Origin: an uncultured bacterium
GTDB taxonomy: Bacteria; Bacillota; Clostridia; Lachnospirales; Lachnospiraceae
DNA length: 64,000 nucleotides
Direction: 5' to 3'
Assembly: GCA_905215155.1 (NCBI GenBank)
Contig: CAJMPJ010000012.1
Coordinates: 1 to 64,000 of the forward strand
The position numbers and the translations under genes were made by a program. Under the pieces are notes generated by a model that did not search any database, had not been told where the DNA came from, and saw only the letters and a list, made by a program, of their open reading frames with translations. Below are positions 42,840 to 48,748 of the stretch, one piece after another; position 1 is the first letter of the stretch, and each line of letters starts with the position of its first letter.

Positions 42840-43214
42840 ATGATTGAAAAGTTAAATCAATATGAAGATGTCCGGCAGTTGAAACTGCGGAGCTCTGCAG
42901 CGATTACAGAATGTGGCAGCAGCTTTAGTGATTTGCTTCATAGCCGCATAAACAGTAATGGAAATCTTCAATTTTCCCGTCATGCGGCAGAGCGGGTGAG
43001 TGAAAGAGGGATTGAGATGTCCGATTCATTTTTGAATGACTTACAGTCTGCTGTTGAAAAAGCCCGTTCAAAAGGTGCAAAAGATGTGGTGATAATAAGT
43101 GAAAGAGGTGCATTTATTGTAAATGTCCCCAACAATACGGTTGTTACTACCATGTCGGGAAATGAAATGAAAGATAATATTTTTACTAAAATTGACAGTG
43201 CCGTTTTATTATAG
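42840..43214 (+). CDS. Flagellar operon protein, TIGR02530-like
   Basis: A 124-residue soluble protein between flgD and flgE. It contains LQFSRHAAERVSERGIEMSDSFLNDLQSAVEKARSKGAKDVVII and FIVNVPNNTVVTTMSGNEMKDNIFTKIDSAVLL. This is the conserved pattern of the small Firmicutes flagellar-operon protein that usually occupies this slot. Its exact function is not established; it may assist hook assembly. The ATG follows a weak GACAGGTGA site. Confidence 0.85.
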   Translation: MIEKLNQYEDVRQLKLRSSAAITECGSSFSDLLHSRINSNGNLQFSRHAAERVSERGIEMSDSFLNDLQSAVEKARSKGAKDVVIISERGAFIVNVPNNTVVTTMSGNEMKDNIFTKIDSAVLL

Positions 43215-43295: not shown

Positions 43296-44900
43296 ATGGT
43301 CAAATCAATGTTTGCTGGTGTAGCAGGACTTAGAGCACATCAGTCGAAAATGGATGTTATCGGTAACAATATAGCTAATGTGAATACATGGGGGTTTAAA
43401 GCTGCAAATATGTCCTTTAAGGACGCCATGTATCAGACTACTTCCGCAGGATCTGGTGGCAGCACGGAAGATGGAGGATATGGTGCGGTAAATGGTAATC
43501 AGGTTGGATATGGCGTTACGACTGGTTCTATTTCATATGATTTTAGTACAGGAGGAGTATCTCCGTCTAACAGCGGTCTGGATTGTATGATAGAAGGAAC
43601 CGGATTTTTTCTTGTAGGGCCAATGATCAATGGAGGAACCATTTCCCTGGACTCAGAGGAAGCTGTAAAATCCAGCGGTTTATACCTGTCCAGAGTCGGC
43701 AAATTTAAAGTAGACCCTAACGGATATCTGGTCGATGACAGTGGTAACTATGTATATGGTTTTAAAAACAGTGATTTAAGCGGGAATAAAAGTTTTGATA
43801 CCAGTGCATTGAGTCCTTTAAAGATTCCTACCAATGGAGATATGGCAAATGTGTCTGGAAAAACATCAAACAATGCGTTAGAGACAGCTAAAAAGGCATT
43901 AGAGGATGCGAGAGTGGCTTATCAAAACGCTTCTTTAGGGTTGGCAGATGCCAGAAAGATAAGCATTGCTGCCAAAGATAAATATCAGTTAGAATATGAT
44001 AATAATAAAATTGCAGATAAATTAAAAATCCGCAATGATGCAAAAGAAGCATCAGAAAAAGCTTATGCCGCATGGAACAGTGAAACAGATCCGGTGAAGG
44101 CAAAAACATTAAAAGAGGAATATGAAACCGCTTTAAAAGCCTATGAGGATGCAGATGCAGATCTCCTGGTTGCTCAGTCCGCGCTTCGGAAATCACCTAC
44201 AGGTACGGGGTATACGGCTGACCAATTAAAAACTGCAATTAAAGCATATCGGGATGCGAATGATGCCATTCAGGGAATTCCGGAAACAGATGCCAATTAT
44301 GAAAATTTGAAAAAAACTCTGGATGATGCAAAGGATAAATTAAAGGAAATACAGACAGCGCTTGCAAAAGTTGATCCTGATTCAATTGAAGGAAAACGTG
44401 ATGCAGCTGTATTAGCAGAAAATGCGGCTGTAGCAAAAGAAAAATCCGCAAAAGAAGCTCAGACTGCTGCAGAAGCTAGTTATGCCAATGCTCAAAAATC
44501 CAACTCGAAAACACAGGAAAAAGGAGCGGTAGATCCAGATAGCCTGGCCAAGTTTGACAGCTATAAGATTCTGGAAGATGGTTCCGTCCAGGGAACTACA
44601 TTGGATAGTGTAAGTGTGATCATTGGTAAGATTGCATTAGGCGGCGTAACGAATACCGGAGGTCTTGAAAAGGACAGCGGGTATTATTATACAGTTGGAG
44701 CCAGTGCAGGAAATGTCAGTGTGTACGAGGGCGGCGGTACACAGGGAAGAATCCGTGGTAACGCTCTTGAGATGGCAAAGGTAGACCTTGCCACCGAGAT
44801 GACAGATATGATCACCACCCAGAGAGGATTCCAGGCCAATTCAAAGATCATCACTGTAACCGATCAGATGTTAGAAGAATTAGTTAATATGAAGCGGTAG
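43296..44900 (+). CDS. flgE: Flagellar hook protein FlgE with large helical insertion
   Basis: Hook subunit. The N-terminus (MVKSMFAGVAGLRAHQSKMDVIGNNIANVNTWGFK region) and C-terminus (MTDMITTQRGFQANSKIITVTDQMLEELVNM) are the standard D0/D1 rod-hook segments, and DCMIEGTGFFLVG is the family core. Residues about 190-408 (DNA about 43863-44520) are an A/E/K/D-rich, strongly helical insert with heptad-like pattern, where hooks usually carry a beta-rich outer domain. The total of 534 residues is long for a Firmicute hook. GAGAGGA precedes the ATG. Confidence 0.93.
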   Translation: MVKSMFAGVAGLRAHQSKMDVIGNNIANVNTWGFKAANMSFKDAMYQTTSAGSGGSTEDGGYGAVNGNQVGYGVTTGSISYDFSTGGVSPSNSGLDCMIEGTGFFLVGPMINGGTISLDSEEAVKSSGLYLSRVGKFKVDPNGYLVDDSGNYVYGFKNSDLSGNKSFDTSALSPLKIPTNGDMANVSGKTSNNALETAKKALEDARVAYQNASLGLADARKISIAAKDKYQLEYDNNKIADKLKIRNDAKEASEKAYAAWNSETDPVKAKTLKEEYETALKAYEDADADLLVAQSALRKSPTGTGYTADQLKTAIKAYRDANDAIQGIPETDANYENLKKTLDDAKDKLKEIQTALAKVDPDSIEGKRDAAVLAENAAVAKEKSAKEAQTAAEASYANAQKSNSKTQEKGAVDPDSLAKFDSYKILEDGSVQGTTLDSVSVIIGKIALGGVTNTGGLEKDSGYYYTVGASAGNVSVYEGGGTQGRIRGNALEMAKVDLATEMTDMITTQRGFQANSKIITVTDQMLEELVNMKR

Positions 44901-45162: not shown

Positions 45163-45193
45163 TCCGTGTTTGAAGGAAAACGGGAGGTTGTTC

Positions 45194-46003
45194 ATGGATG
45201 TATCTTTGATAGTGGGGTGGATACTGGGGATTATTCTGATCGTTGTTGGGATCGGGGTGGAAAAGGTTGTTAATTTTATTGACGTACCCAGTGTTATCAT
45301 CGTTATCGGAGGAATGGCAGCAGCGCTTATTGCCAGTTATCCATTTAGAATGCTGGTCCAGATCCCCAAACATGTGGCAATCATGCTGGGAACTCAGAAA
45401 TACAATGCAGGTGAGGTCATTTATAAGTTTGCTGATATGGCACAGACAGCCAGAAAAAGGGGGCTACTGGTGCTGGAAGAGGAAGCCGCTATGATACAGG
45501 ATCCTTTTTTGAAACAGAGTGTGATGCTGATTGTTGATGCAGTAGACGCGGAACGGATCCGTGAGATTCTGGAGGGAGAAGTCAATGCGTTGATTGACCG
45601 GCACGAACAGCAGATCAGTATTTATGAAAAATGTACTTCACTGGCACCTGCCTTTGGTCTTGTAGGAACTCTTGTGGGATTAATCAATATGCTGAAGGGA
45701 GTGAATATGGACCAAGGTGCAGGCAGCATTGGTGCAGACATGTCACTGGCACTGATCGCAACCTTTTATGGCTGTATACTGGCCCATCTGGTCTTTGCGC
45801 CGATGGCAAAAAAACTTCGGATCCGCAATGAAGAAGAAGTAATATATAAGCAGATCATTATAGAAGGTGTGCTGTCGATTCAGGCTGGGGATAATCCCAA
45901 ATTTCTGGTGGAAAAGCTTTTCTCTTATTTATCTCAAAGCCAGCAGAAAAAATTTATGAGAGATGAAAGTACCGGGGGATACGGCGGGGATGCTGCATCG
46001 TAA
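45194..46003 (+). CDS. motA: Flagellar stator protein MotA
   Basis: Ion-channel stator subunit that pushes on FliG. The 269-residue protein has four TM segments (about 5-23, 30-50, 148-170, 183-205) and the family FIDVPSVIIVIGG. The cytoplasmic torque charges are in ARKRGLLVLEEE, and the channel prolines are in SLAPAFGLVGTLVGL and FAPMAKKL. These key residues are intact. The ATG at 45194 follows GGGAGG by 6 bases; an in-frame upstream start at 45170 precedes that site. The partner motB follows 39 bases later. Confidence 0.95.
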   Translation: MDVSLIVGWILGIILIVVGIGVEKVVNFIDVPSVIIVIGGMAAALIASYPFRMLVQIPKHVAIMLGTQKYNAGEVIYKFADMAQTARKRGLLVLEEEAAMIQDPFLKQSVMLIVDAVDAERIREILEGEVNALIDRHEQQISIYEKCTSLAPAFGLVGTLVGLINMLKGVNMDQGAGSIGADMSLALIATFYGCILAHLVFAPMAKKLRIRNEEEVIYKQIIIEGVLSIQAGDNPKFLVEKLFSYLSQSQQKKFMRDESTGGYGGDAAS

Positions 46004-46042: not shown

Positions 46043-46855
46043 ATGATTAAGAAGTATAAGAAACAGGAAGAATCCGGAGGCTGGCTGGATACATATGGTG
46101 GAATCGTTACGCTTCTTTTGTGCTTTTTTATCCTTTTGTATTCCGTTTCTTATGTTGACCAGAACAAATGGAAGATGTTAGTTGGAAGTTTTAAACCCAT
46201 TTCGTCGGAAGGGAGCGGTAACGATGTACCGCCGGTAAGTGGTAATGAGAGAGAGTCCGTCCAAAATGTTCCTTCTGAGAATGATGATATTACAGAGTTT
46301 GATCAACTTTACCAGGTTTTAAAGCAGGTAATTGAATCGCGGAATTTACAGGATTCTGTCGAGATAACTCCTGGAGATGACTTCACATTTATAACATTTC
46401 GTGATAAAGTATTTTTTGATGGAGACAGCTCTGTACTCCGGCAGGAAGGCAAAGAAGTACTGGACCAATTTGCGGCTGCTTTTTTGCGGGCAAACGGCAT
46501 GATAAAAGATGTGCAGGTTTTGGCACACACGTCTCAGGAGAATCCGGAAAGACCGAACAATATCCGCAATGACCGGATGCTGTCAGCACAGCGTTCCGCA
46601 GAAGTTATCATATATCTTCAAAGTAAAAATGCGATTTCTCCGGAAAAGCTGGTGAGTATGAGTTTTGGCCAGTATCGCCCGATTGCACCACTTGATACCG
46701 AAGATGGGAGGGCGCGAAACCGGCGTGTGGAGATTTTGATCACCAAAAGCAACACGGTGGAAAAATCCTTAGAAGAGTACTACAACCAGGTATACCATCA
46801 GGATCAGTTAGAAACGGACAATCAAATAAAAAGCGGGAGTGAAACAGATGGCTGA
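46043..46855 (+). CDS. motB: MotB-type stator/OmpA-like protein lacking the channel aspartate
   Basis: The 270-residue protein has one N-terminal TM (about 19-38) and a C-terminal OmpA-like peptidoglycan-binding domain (VFFDGDSSVLRQEGKEVLDQFA, and NDRMLSAQRSAEVIIYL, SFGQYRPIAP). In the TM entry the usual Y-A/S-D-x-x-T motif, whose Asp carries the proton, reads Y18-G19-G20-I-V-T: the Asp position is glycine (codon 46100-46102). The only nearby acid is D16, four residues toward the N-terminus. The reading frame is intact, and motA and fliM neighbours are normal. Either an altered conduction path or an inactive stator is possible. Confidence 0.88.
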   Translation: MIKKYKKQEESGGWLDTYGGIVTLLLCFFILLYSVSYVDQNKWKMLVGSFKPISSEGSGNDVPPVSGNERESVQNVPSENDDITEFDQLYQVLKQVIESRNLQDSVEITPGDDFTFITFRDKVFFDGDSSVLRQEGKEVLDQFAAAFLRANGMIKDVQVLAHTSQENPERPNNIRNDRMLSAQRSAEVIIYLQSKNAISPEKLVSMSFGQYRPIAPLDTEDGRARNRRVEILITKSNTVEKSLEEYYNQVYHQDQLETDNQIKSGSETDG

Positions 46856-47867
46856 AGTATTATCCCAAAGTCAAATTGATGCACTGCTCAATTCCCTTGC
46901 GGGAACGGATGAGCCGATCGATGAGATTGAAAAAAAAGGAAACGAAACGAAATACAGAAAATATGATTTTTATAGTCCTAAGAAATTTACAAAAGATAAA
47001 CTAAAAATATTAAAGAGCATATTTGATAATTATTCCAGGATTGCTGGTTCCCAGATTAACGGCCTATACCGGACCTCCAGTGAATTATCGGTTATTACGG
47101 TAGAGGAACAGCGTTATTATGAGTTTGGAAATGCACTGAATGATAATGATGTGCTGACCATTGTTAATGTAACAGTCCCGAATGCTCCTCAGAGCCCTCC
47201 TCTTTTAATAAATGCCAGTATGAGTCTGATGTTAAGCCTCATCGACCGTATGCTTGGAGGGGTAGGGGAAGAAGCAGACGTTGATGAATATTATACCTAT
47301 ACAGAGATCGAGATGGCTCTGTACAAAAAAGTAGTTCAGTACTTAATCGGGGCGCTGAAAGATTCATGGTCCAGTTATGTTGATTTAAACTTTGAATTAG
47401 ACAGGCTGGAAGAAAACCCGGGAATGTTTCAGGAAATTGGTGTCGATGAAACCATTGTGATTGTTGTGATAGATGTGGAATTAAAAGAATGTACCGGCAG
47501 GCTGAATGTATGTATACCGGGATCATTGCTTATGAACATATTTGCCATCATGGATAAGAAGAAACACAGTGCGATGGGCGATGAGCTCAAGAGCCAGGAC
47601 AACAGGCAGGAAATCTTTAACAGTATTAAAGGTTCTGATTTACTGGTTCGTGCAAAAGTCGGCGATGCTGTGATTACTCTTGATGATATCTATAACCTTC
47701 ATGTGGGGGATGTTGTCAATCTGAATACTCCAAAGGATTCAGACGTAGAGCTGTATGTAGAGGAACAGCCGTGGTTTAAAGGCCAGCTGGGTGTTCACAA
47801 GAGGAATGTTGCAGTACAGATTGATGATTTAGTTGATAAGGGAAATTACCAGACCAGTGAAAACTGA
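46848..47867 (+). CDS. fliM: Flagellar motor switch protein FliM
   Basis: C-ring protein that binds phospho-CheY. The 339-residue protein starts with the CheY-P-binding peptide LSQSQIDALLNSL (residues 5-17), followed by the CheC-like middle domain (FDNYSRIAGSQINGLYRTSSELS) and the C-terminal SpoA domain (LLVRAKVGDAVITLDDIYNLHVGDVV). The ATG at 46848 follows GGGAGTGA by about 5 bases; an in-frame ATG at 46839 overlaps that site. It overlaps motB by 8 bases, with no fliL between them. Confidence 0.95.
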   Translation: MAEVLSQSQIDALLNSLAGTDEPIDEIEKKGNETKYRKYDFYSPKKFTKDKLKILKSIFDNYSRIAGSQINGLYRTSSELSVITVEEQRYYEFGNALNDNDVLTIVNVTVPNAPQSPPLLINASMSLMLSLIDRMLGGVGEEADVDEYYTYTEIEMALYKKVVQYLIGALKDSWSSYVDLNFELDRLEENPGMFQEIGVDETIVIVVIDVELKECTGRLNVCIPGSLLMNIFAIMDKKKHSAMGDELKSQDNRQEIFNSIKGSDLLVRAKVGDAVITLDDIYNLHVGDVVNLNTPKDSDVELYVEEQPWFKGQLGVHKRNVAVQIDDLVDKGNYQTSEN

Positions 47868-48301: not shown

Positions 48302-48748
48302 ATGTCATTTTTGAGTTCTATGAACATCAGTGCGTCAGCAATGACCGCACAGCGCCTTCGTTTGGATGTCGCATCTGAGAATATTGCAAATATTGATACC
48401 ACAAGGACAGAAGCCGGCGGTCCCTATCGAAGAAAAATGGTAGTACTTGAAGCCAGAAACGAGAATAGTTTTAAAAGAACACTGATGAATGCGGCAGGCA
48501 GAAGTCTGCAGCAAAGTACAGGGGGTGTCAGGGTTTCACAGATTATGGATGACACCAGTCCTTTAAAGTCTGTTTATAACCCGGAACATCCGGATGCGGA
48601 TGAAGATGGCTATGTGCAGATGCCTAATGTGGATTTGATCAAAGAGACCGTAGACAGTATGTCTGCAACCAGGTCCTATGAAGCCAACATAACTGCATTT
48701 AATGCCATAAAGATGATGGCTTCCAAGGCATTGGAAATCGGGAAATAA
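48302..48748 (+). CDS. flgC: Flagellar basal-body rod protein FlgC (displaced)
   Basis: Proximal rod subunit. The 148-residue protein has the FlgC opening MSFLSSMNISASAMTAQRLRLDVASENIANIDTT and the C-terminal VDLIKETVDSMSATRSYEANITAFNAIKMMASKALEIGK. It is clearly FlgC and not another rod protein. In almost all Firmicutes it follows flgB; here it lies between cheY and fliY, 13 kb downstream. GAGGAGGG precedes the ATG at 48302, excluding an in-frame ATG at 48287. Confidence 0.95.
   Translation: MSFLSSMNISASAMTAQRLRLDVASENIANIDTTRTEAGGPYRRKMVVLEARNENSFKRTLMNAAGRSLQQSTGGVRVSQIMDDTSPLKSVYNPEHPDADEDGYVQMPNVDLIKETVDSMSATRSYEANITAFNAIKMMASKALEIGK

Follow-up and report, generated by a model that had tools for sequence, protein, structure and literature searches.

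A natural, clade-wide flagellar-operon MotAB without the MotB ion-binding aspartate in relatives of Lacrimispora, probably a non-conducting stator

Introduction

Bacillus subtilis possesses two flagellar stators, MotAB and MotPS, and the MotB-type proteins of both carry the conserved ion-binding aspartate. Pseudomonas aeruginosa likewise possesses MotAB and MotCD, and excerpts of a study of this bacterium place the aspartate in both MotB and MotD (PMC12288467). The residue has been replaced in Salmonella MotB D33N, Vibrio PomB D24N and P. aeruginosa MotB-D30A, in which the rest of the protein is intact according to the excerpted reports. The D30A protein, acting beside the second stator MotCD, reduced swimming below that of a motB deletion and was possibly dominant negative, competing for the motor (excerpts of PMC12288467), and the D33N stator of Salmonella, with the same aspartate lost, had a lower affinity for the motor (excerpts of PMC11673145). 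On the MotA side, any one of the PomA changes T158A, T185A and T186A left Vibrio non-motile and almost entirely without ion transport, and T185A also affected complex formation (excerpts of PMC6677748). Among the matches listed from the open-licence literature, judged by title and the start of the abstract, none reported a natural flagellar MotB without the aspartate, and the words aspartate, aspartic and D32 occur 0 times in a 2025 stator survey (PMC12505986).

Here we describe such a protein. It is encoded in a window of 64,000 nucleotides (the whole stretch of DNA analysed) from a bacterium that is, judged by its sequence, related to Lacrimispora. The motAB pair resembles the Na+-type stators MotPS and PomAB in that its MotA matches the MotP model best, its MotB has a plug region and an OmpA-like domain, and it keeps its place in the operon. 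Unlike these stators, its MotB has no aspartate at the place of PomB D24 and its MotA has alanine at the place of PomA T185. Whereas the mutants above were made in the laboratory, the loss described here is natural, is shared by a clade and is accompanied by a change in MotA. Most of the relatives that share it, among those with searchable genomes, resemble the P. aeruginosa D30A strain in having a second stator, and the dual-stator species in having several stator pairs per genome; in contrast to P. aeruginosa, one of their three pairs is without the aspartate.

Results

The motAB pair and its operon

The features of the locus are as follows.

45194 to 46003, plus strand: motA, 269 aa, with an alternative TTG start at 45170 (ORF, Pfam/NCBIfam, alignment)
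45758 to 45760, plus strand: codon GCA of MotA Ala189, opposite PomA T185 in the alignment; all 18 full-length operon MotAs that accompany an Asp-bearing MotB have Thr here
46043 to 46855, plus strand: motB without the aspartate (Asp-less), 270 aa, ATG start; one transmembrane (TM) helix (14–49 in the model), a linker and an OmpA-like domain
46088 to 46090, plus strand: codon of MotB Asp16, which precedes the lost aspartate by one turn of the helix; 12 of the 13 Asp-less proteins have an acid here
46100 to 46102, plus strand: codon GGA of MotB Gly20, at the column of the family's ion-binding aspartate (alignments and codon reading)
46848 to 47867, plus strand: fliM, whose first 8 bases, counted from the ATG, are also the last 8 of motB; GTG start at 46839

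MotB residues 14–29 read WLDTYGGIVTLLLCFF. Aligned with two solved PomB chains, Gly20 stands opposite D24 in the first and opposite Asn24 in the other, which is presumably the D24N mutant, and the absence of the conserved aspartate that the preliminary description had claimed for this codon is thereby borne out. The same description had called motB otherwise intact and the flagellar synteny normal, and this agrees with what we found. Both reading frames are open, motB adjoins motA inside a flagellar operon, and the domains exceed the Pfam cut-offs (MotB_plug, 6.6e-15, and OmpA, 7.2e-12, in MotB; MotA_ExbB, 5.6e-28, in MotA). An NCBIfam scan of ten operon proteins placed FliF, FliG, FliI, FliY, FliP, FliR, FlhB and FlhA above the cut-offs, and FliM and FlgE were best matches just or well below them. 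The top NCBIfam model for MotA was MotP (NF005383), at 240.8 bits and thus below its cut-off of 394, followed by MotA and PomA models, and several MotB, MotD and MotS models matched MotB best; among the matches listed, neither protein reached an equivalog cut-off. No second motA or motB was found among the window's ORFs of at least 90 aa.

In the AlphaFold model of MotB (mean pLDDT 78.7), helix 14–49 runs unbroken through Gly19-Gly20, yet glycine occupies the column of the conserved ion-binding aspartate. The OmpA-like domain was modelled confidently (pLDDT 88–98 per ten residues over 81–250), and its fold, that of a peptidoglycan-binding domain by family, is intact in the model.

The ORF at 48302–48748, which we take to encode a FlgC-like rod protein, follows cheY and does not lie between the flgB-like (34880) and fliE-like (35299) genes, its frequent place. 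At 534 aa, FlgE (43296–44900) is long; its middle is rich in Lys, Ala and Asp, and in most pairs its dN exceeds that of every other operon gene compared. Of 27 loci compared, 24 contain a match to an ORF of 124 aa between flgD and flgE (42840–43214); the three loci without one are the short loci L078–L080.

Distribution of the loss

A search of 5.8 billion proteins gave 653 matches, the best 120 of which were aligned with the query (121 rows). P0078, a fragment without the TM region and with a gap at the aspartate column, was left out, leaving 120 proteins with this column. It holds Asp in 107 rows, Gly in 6, Val, His and Asn in 2 each and Tyr in 1, besides the gap, so that 13 of the 120 aligned proteins are Asp-less through five different replacements. 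Besides the query, these are the nearest homolog, at 92% identity, and 11 more. The preliminary description had raised the possibility of a glycine fixed among relatives; instead G, V, H, N and Y all occur, and the column has thus lost its old constraint. Asp-less members are Lacrimispora algidixylanolytica (L001, Val), Clostridium sp. HBUAS56010 (L002, Gly), a MAG called Hungatella sp. (L004, Val) and the genomes G025, G026 and G027. Among the Asp-bearing relatives the codon is GAC in 17 of 19 and GAT in 2 of 19.

When a profile of the 13 Asp-less proteins served as the query, the best 120 of 517 matches included 19 not seen before, and all 19 have Asp. From the larger family, 397 genomes were drawn, of which 34 matched and 30 were read; 28 of these have Asp, and the 2 that are Asp-less were both already known. 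The His/Tyr and Asn types had no close genome match among the 397 (best 63% and 56% identity, both to genomes of the known Gly type). Within the proteins and genomes searched, the loss is thus rare and local; these sets are small and related, and their counts are not independent. In a first tree, which included the trait's own columns, the Gly/Val rows formed one clade (99/96). On a tree built without residues 14–40 the trait needs two changes, and an AU test did not reject a single clade of all 13 Asp-less proteins (p-AU 0.152), which together leave the number of losses at one to three, related.

The aspartate of the MotB motif HTD helps to bind peptidoglycan. At the corresponding place of the OmpA-like domain (window 46526–46534), HTS stands in 98 of the 121 rows (query and best 120 of 653), HTT in 20 and HTA in 3, with HTD in the MotB of PDB 6ysf; HTS, HTT and HTA are common to Asp-bearing and Asp-less proteins.

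Selection on motB and motA

Read as DNA, both motA and motB are open in seven of seven Asp-less loci. Stops inside the DNA matches were also seen in Asp-bearing relatives, and since the matches overrun the ends of proteins shorter than the query, we read these stops as the genes' own ends. Two such stops occur in G026, whose MotB is six residues shorter than that of G025.

Omega was estimated with an iqtree codon model as one value per set and not as a branch test. The Asp-less set comprised six of the seven sequences (G027 was left out as a near-copy of G025), and the Asp-bearing sets comprised 12 or 6 of 18, the six being picked by hand for spread; their sizes differed for motA (11), fliY (10 and 5) and fliR (11 and 5). 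Ten genes were compared, leaving out flgD, flgE and the ORF between them. For motB, omega was 0.179 in the six Asp-less sequences versus 0.103 and 0.099 in the 12 and 6 Asp-bearing ones, and the ranges from 40 codon bootstraps each (0.134–0.236 versus 0.064–0.139) just overlap. The Asp-less value for motA was 0.065 versus 0.069 and 0.059. For the other genes, with the two Asp-bearing values in brackets, it was 0.058 for fliM (0.061, 0.064), 0.100 for fliY (0.116, 0.117), 0.036 for fliP (0.044, 0.042), 0.055 for fliR (0.063, 0.060), 0.142 for fliO (0.140, 0.144), 0.046 for ORF 48302–48748 (0.064, 0.056), 0.021 for cheY (0.014, 0.015) and 0.043 for fliQ (0.064, 0.073). A clear rise was thus seen in motB only. 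Within motB, the OmpA part rose (0.140 Asp-less versus 0.063 Asp-bearing), whereas the first 52 residues, a short and noisy stretch, did not (0.102 versus 0.162). The parts of MotA gave, in the same order, 0.111 and 0.098 for TM1-2, 0.043 and 0.026 for the cytoplasmic loop, 0.033 and 0.051 for TM3-4, and 0.019 and 0.022 for the tail. Taken together, the Asp-less MotB is under purifying but relaxed selection, and MotA is not relaxed.

Changes in MotA

Twenty-seven loci were compared, in which the MotAs of G004 and G010 and the MotB of G008 are shorter than 240 aa; the 25 full-length operon MotAs comprise 18 from Asp-bearing and seven from Asp-less loci. Ten positions that are invariant in the 18 have lost their residue in all seven. 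At the place of PomA T185 (PomA numbers were counted on the printed alignment), Thr is found in 18 of 18 Asp-bearing loci and also in eight further ones (L017–L024), versus Ala or Ser in seven of seven Asp-less loci (Ser in G027). The Na+-type threonine trio of PomA T158, T185 and T186 is incomplete in the window's protein, which keeps the first and third places and has Ala189 at the second. The preliminary description had stated that MotA keeps its key charges and prolines, which is partly right for the key residues. The two prolines are kept, as is an Arg-x7-Glu pair (R87, E95), which is present in all 12 MotAs printed and is a candidate counterpart of E. coli R90/E98 in a set without E. coli MotA, but the threonine was lost along with the aspartate. 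The seven Asp-less MotAs fall in one clade, so perhaps one event accounts for them. Ala also occupies the T185 position in the remaining MotA genes of these genomes; with Ala normal in other MotA types, the change alone does not show inactivity, and it may reflect a changed ion choice instead.

Additional stators in the relatives

As the preliminary description had suggested, other motAB genes exist elsewhere, namely in relatives that share the loss: two further pairs with the aspartate occur in five of the six Asp-less genomes, all of which are relatives of the window's organism. Three copies each of motA and motB are present in G001, G002, G025, G026 and G027, with Asp in two of the motBs; these genomes represent about three independent lineages, given that G025, G026 and G027 are close and G025 and G027 nearly identical. 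Omega of the two extra motBs was 0.055 and 0.059 (four Asp-less genomes). Both pairs stand alone outside the flagellar operon (three genomes looked at for each), among neighbours that, by the identities we take them to have, do not look flagellar. One pair is a canonical MotAB, whose MotA exceeds the NF005997 cut-off in G001 and G002, and the other matches MotC/MotD-type models best, below the cut-offs.

In the sixth genome, G003 (a 3.1 Mb MAG), only the Asp-less pair was found. It was rejected as a case of a genome without other stators, because the 10 kb around both pairs of its near-twin G001 are also missing, the sole match to these surroundings being 88 bases at 73%, which points to an assembly gap. 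With the tally made by hand, G003 left out and G004 (extra motB split) counted as having the stator, both extra types occur in 5 of 5 Asp-less versus 6 of 18 Asp-bearing genomes (Fisher 0.014, kinship ignored), and any extra stator in 5 of 5 versus 14 of 18 (Fisher 0.35, kinship ignored). The operon stator alone was found in 4 of 18 Asp-bearing genomes, where, provided that nothing is missing from the assemblies and that these bacteria are motile, it does the work.

Split or short stator genes occur in Asp-bearing genomes (loci L034, L003, L013 and L011), namely the extra motB of G004, the operon motA of G004 and G010, and the operon motB of G008; these are perhaps assembly errors. A fourth motAB type (WQDSYSDLMTDLLAIF) is present in G020 and G011 (L116, L117).

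The acid at MotB position 16

The preliminary description had proposed that D16 may serve in place of the lost aspartate and might co-vary with it. Across the query and the best 120 of 653 homologs, D16 is found in 105 of the 107 Asp-bearing rows (S and G in the other two) and is therefore no new replacement, which weakens it as a new compensating acid. The 13 Asp-less rows have D in 6, E in 6 and Y in 1 (P0004, together with Gly20), and none of these proteins has another acid in TM residues 14–38. The proposal keeps some probability in so far as 12 of the 13 retain an acid and Glu16 is present in 6 of the 13 Asp-less but 0 of 107 Asp-bearing rows, whose kinship means that a Fisher value for Glu16 is not to be taken as a fair probability; it is weakened in that D16 is common beside Asp20 and that P0004 does without an acid. 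The confinement of Glu16 to proteins without Asp20 is the best sign that the acid may matter more after the loss, or else that Asp and Glu are now interchangeable there, an alternative favoured by the Tyr16 row.

Discussion

The operon MotAB described here, MotP/PomA-like and Asp-less across a natural clade, is probably a non-conducting complex that selection maintains, the motor being driven by other stators. With the carboxylate lost, the operon complex would pass no ions and would not step, and torque would come from the two other, Asp-bearing stators. The MotA5B2 complex would still assemble, as the constraint on the TM region and MotA and the unbroken model helix suggest, and it may compete for or tune motor sites as a non-powered stator or have another structural role at the rotor. 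MotA is fully constrained, including most of its cytoplasmic part, so that the rotor-side contact is likely still in use. By analogy with the P. aeruginosa D30A protein, an Asp-less stator may exert an effect through competition where a second stator is present. On the other hand, the weaker motor binding of Salmonella D33N makes lasting occupancy doubtful, the relaxed omega of motB could mean a slowly failing gene, and extra stators are also present in 14 of 18 Asp-bearing relatives, all of which count against a non-powered stator.

A slowly failing gene would be a relic: the other stators would have made the operon stator dispensable, and its frame would be partly kept by the overlap of motB with the start of fliM, where a break would be polar. 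The near doubling of motB omega, clearest in the OmpA domain, fits such a decay, as do the loss of Trp14 in P0008, P0017 and L002, the altered NRRVEI in P0004 and P0017, the long branch of P0017 (0.45) and the earlier end of MotB in G026. We nevertheless consider it unlikely, because an omega of 0.18 is far below 1 over pairs with synonymous distances up to 1.2 to 2.0, all seven DNA copies are open, motA should have decayed alongside and is not relaxed, and polarity guards the frame but not the amino acids.

Alternatively, the ion could be carried by the acid at position 16, which lies on the same face of the helix but one turn closer to the cytoplasm, perhaps with a changed ion choice. The D or E in 12 of 13 Asp-less proteins and the E confined to them among related rows (best 120 of 653), the constraint on the first 52 residues of MotB and on all of MotA, and an Ala189 like that of the other two stator types of these genomes are in line with this. 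However, D16 in 105 of 107 Asp-bearing proteins (best 120 of 653) points to another role that it already had, P0004 combines Y16 with G20, TM residues 14–38 offer no other acid in the 13 proteins, and the aspartate is the critical residue of published stators (excerpts of PMC6677748 and PMC9389320). A re-sited carboxylate is improbable on this balance, and we are more sceptical still of a fully working natural stator whose ion would sit on D16/E16, one helical turn below the classical aspartate, with a matching change in MotA. An error in sequencing or assembly, or a mutation confined to one strain, which the preliminary description had also considered, would suit a change confined to a single codon, but the aspartate is also missing from 12 other listed proteins (best 120 of 653) and six relatives' genomes, and GGA is two bases from GAC; this recurrence refutes it, and we give it practically no credence.

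Weighing the possible competition by D30A against the weak binding of D33N, we rank a weak, conditional competitor or tuning part before a relic, and a relic before a moved ion site. The aspartate of MotB is regarded as central to the flagellar stator, and here a clade has lost it with both genes still under selection. If the non-powered stator is real, these bacteria would offer a wild-type system for stator competition and exchange; if the ion site has moved, they would probe how far the 5:2 rotary mechanism can vary.
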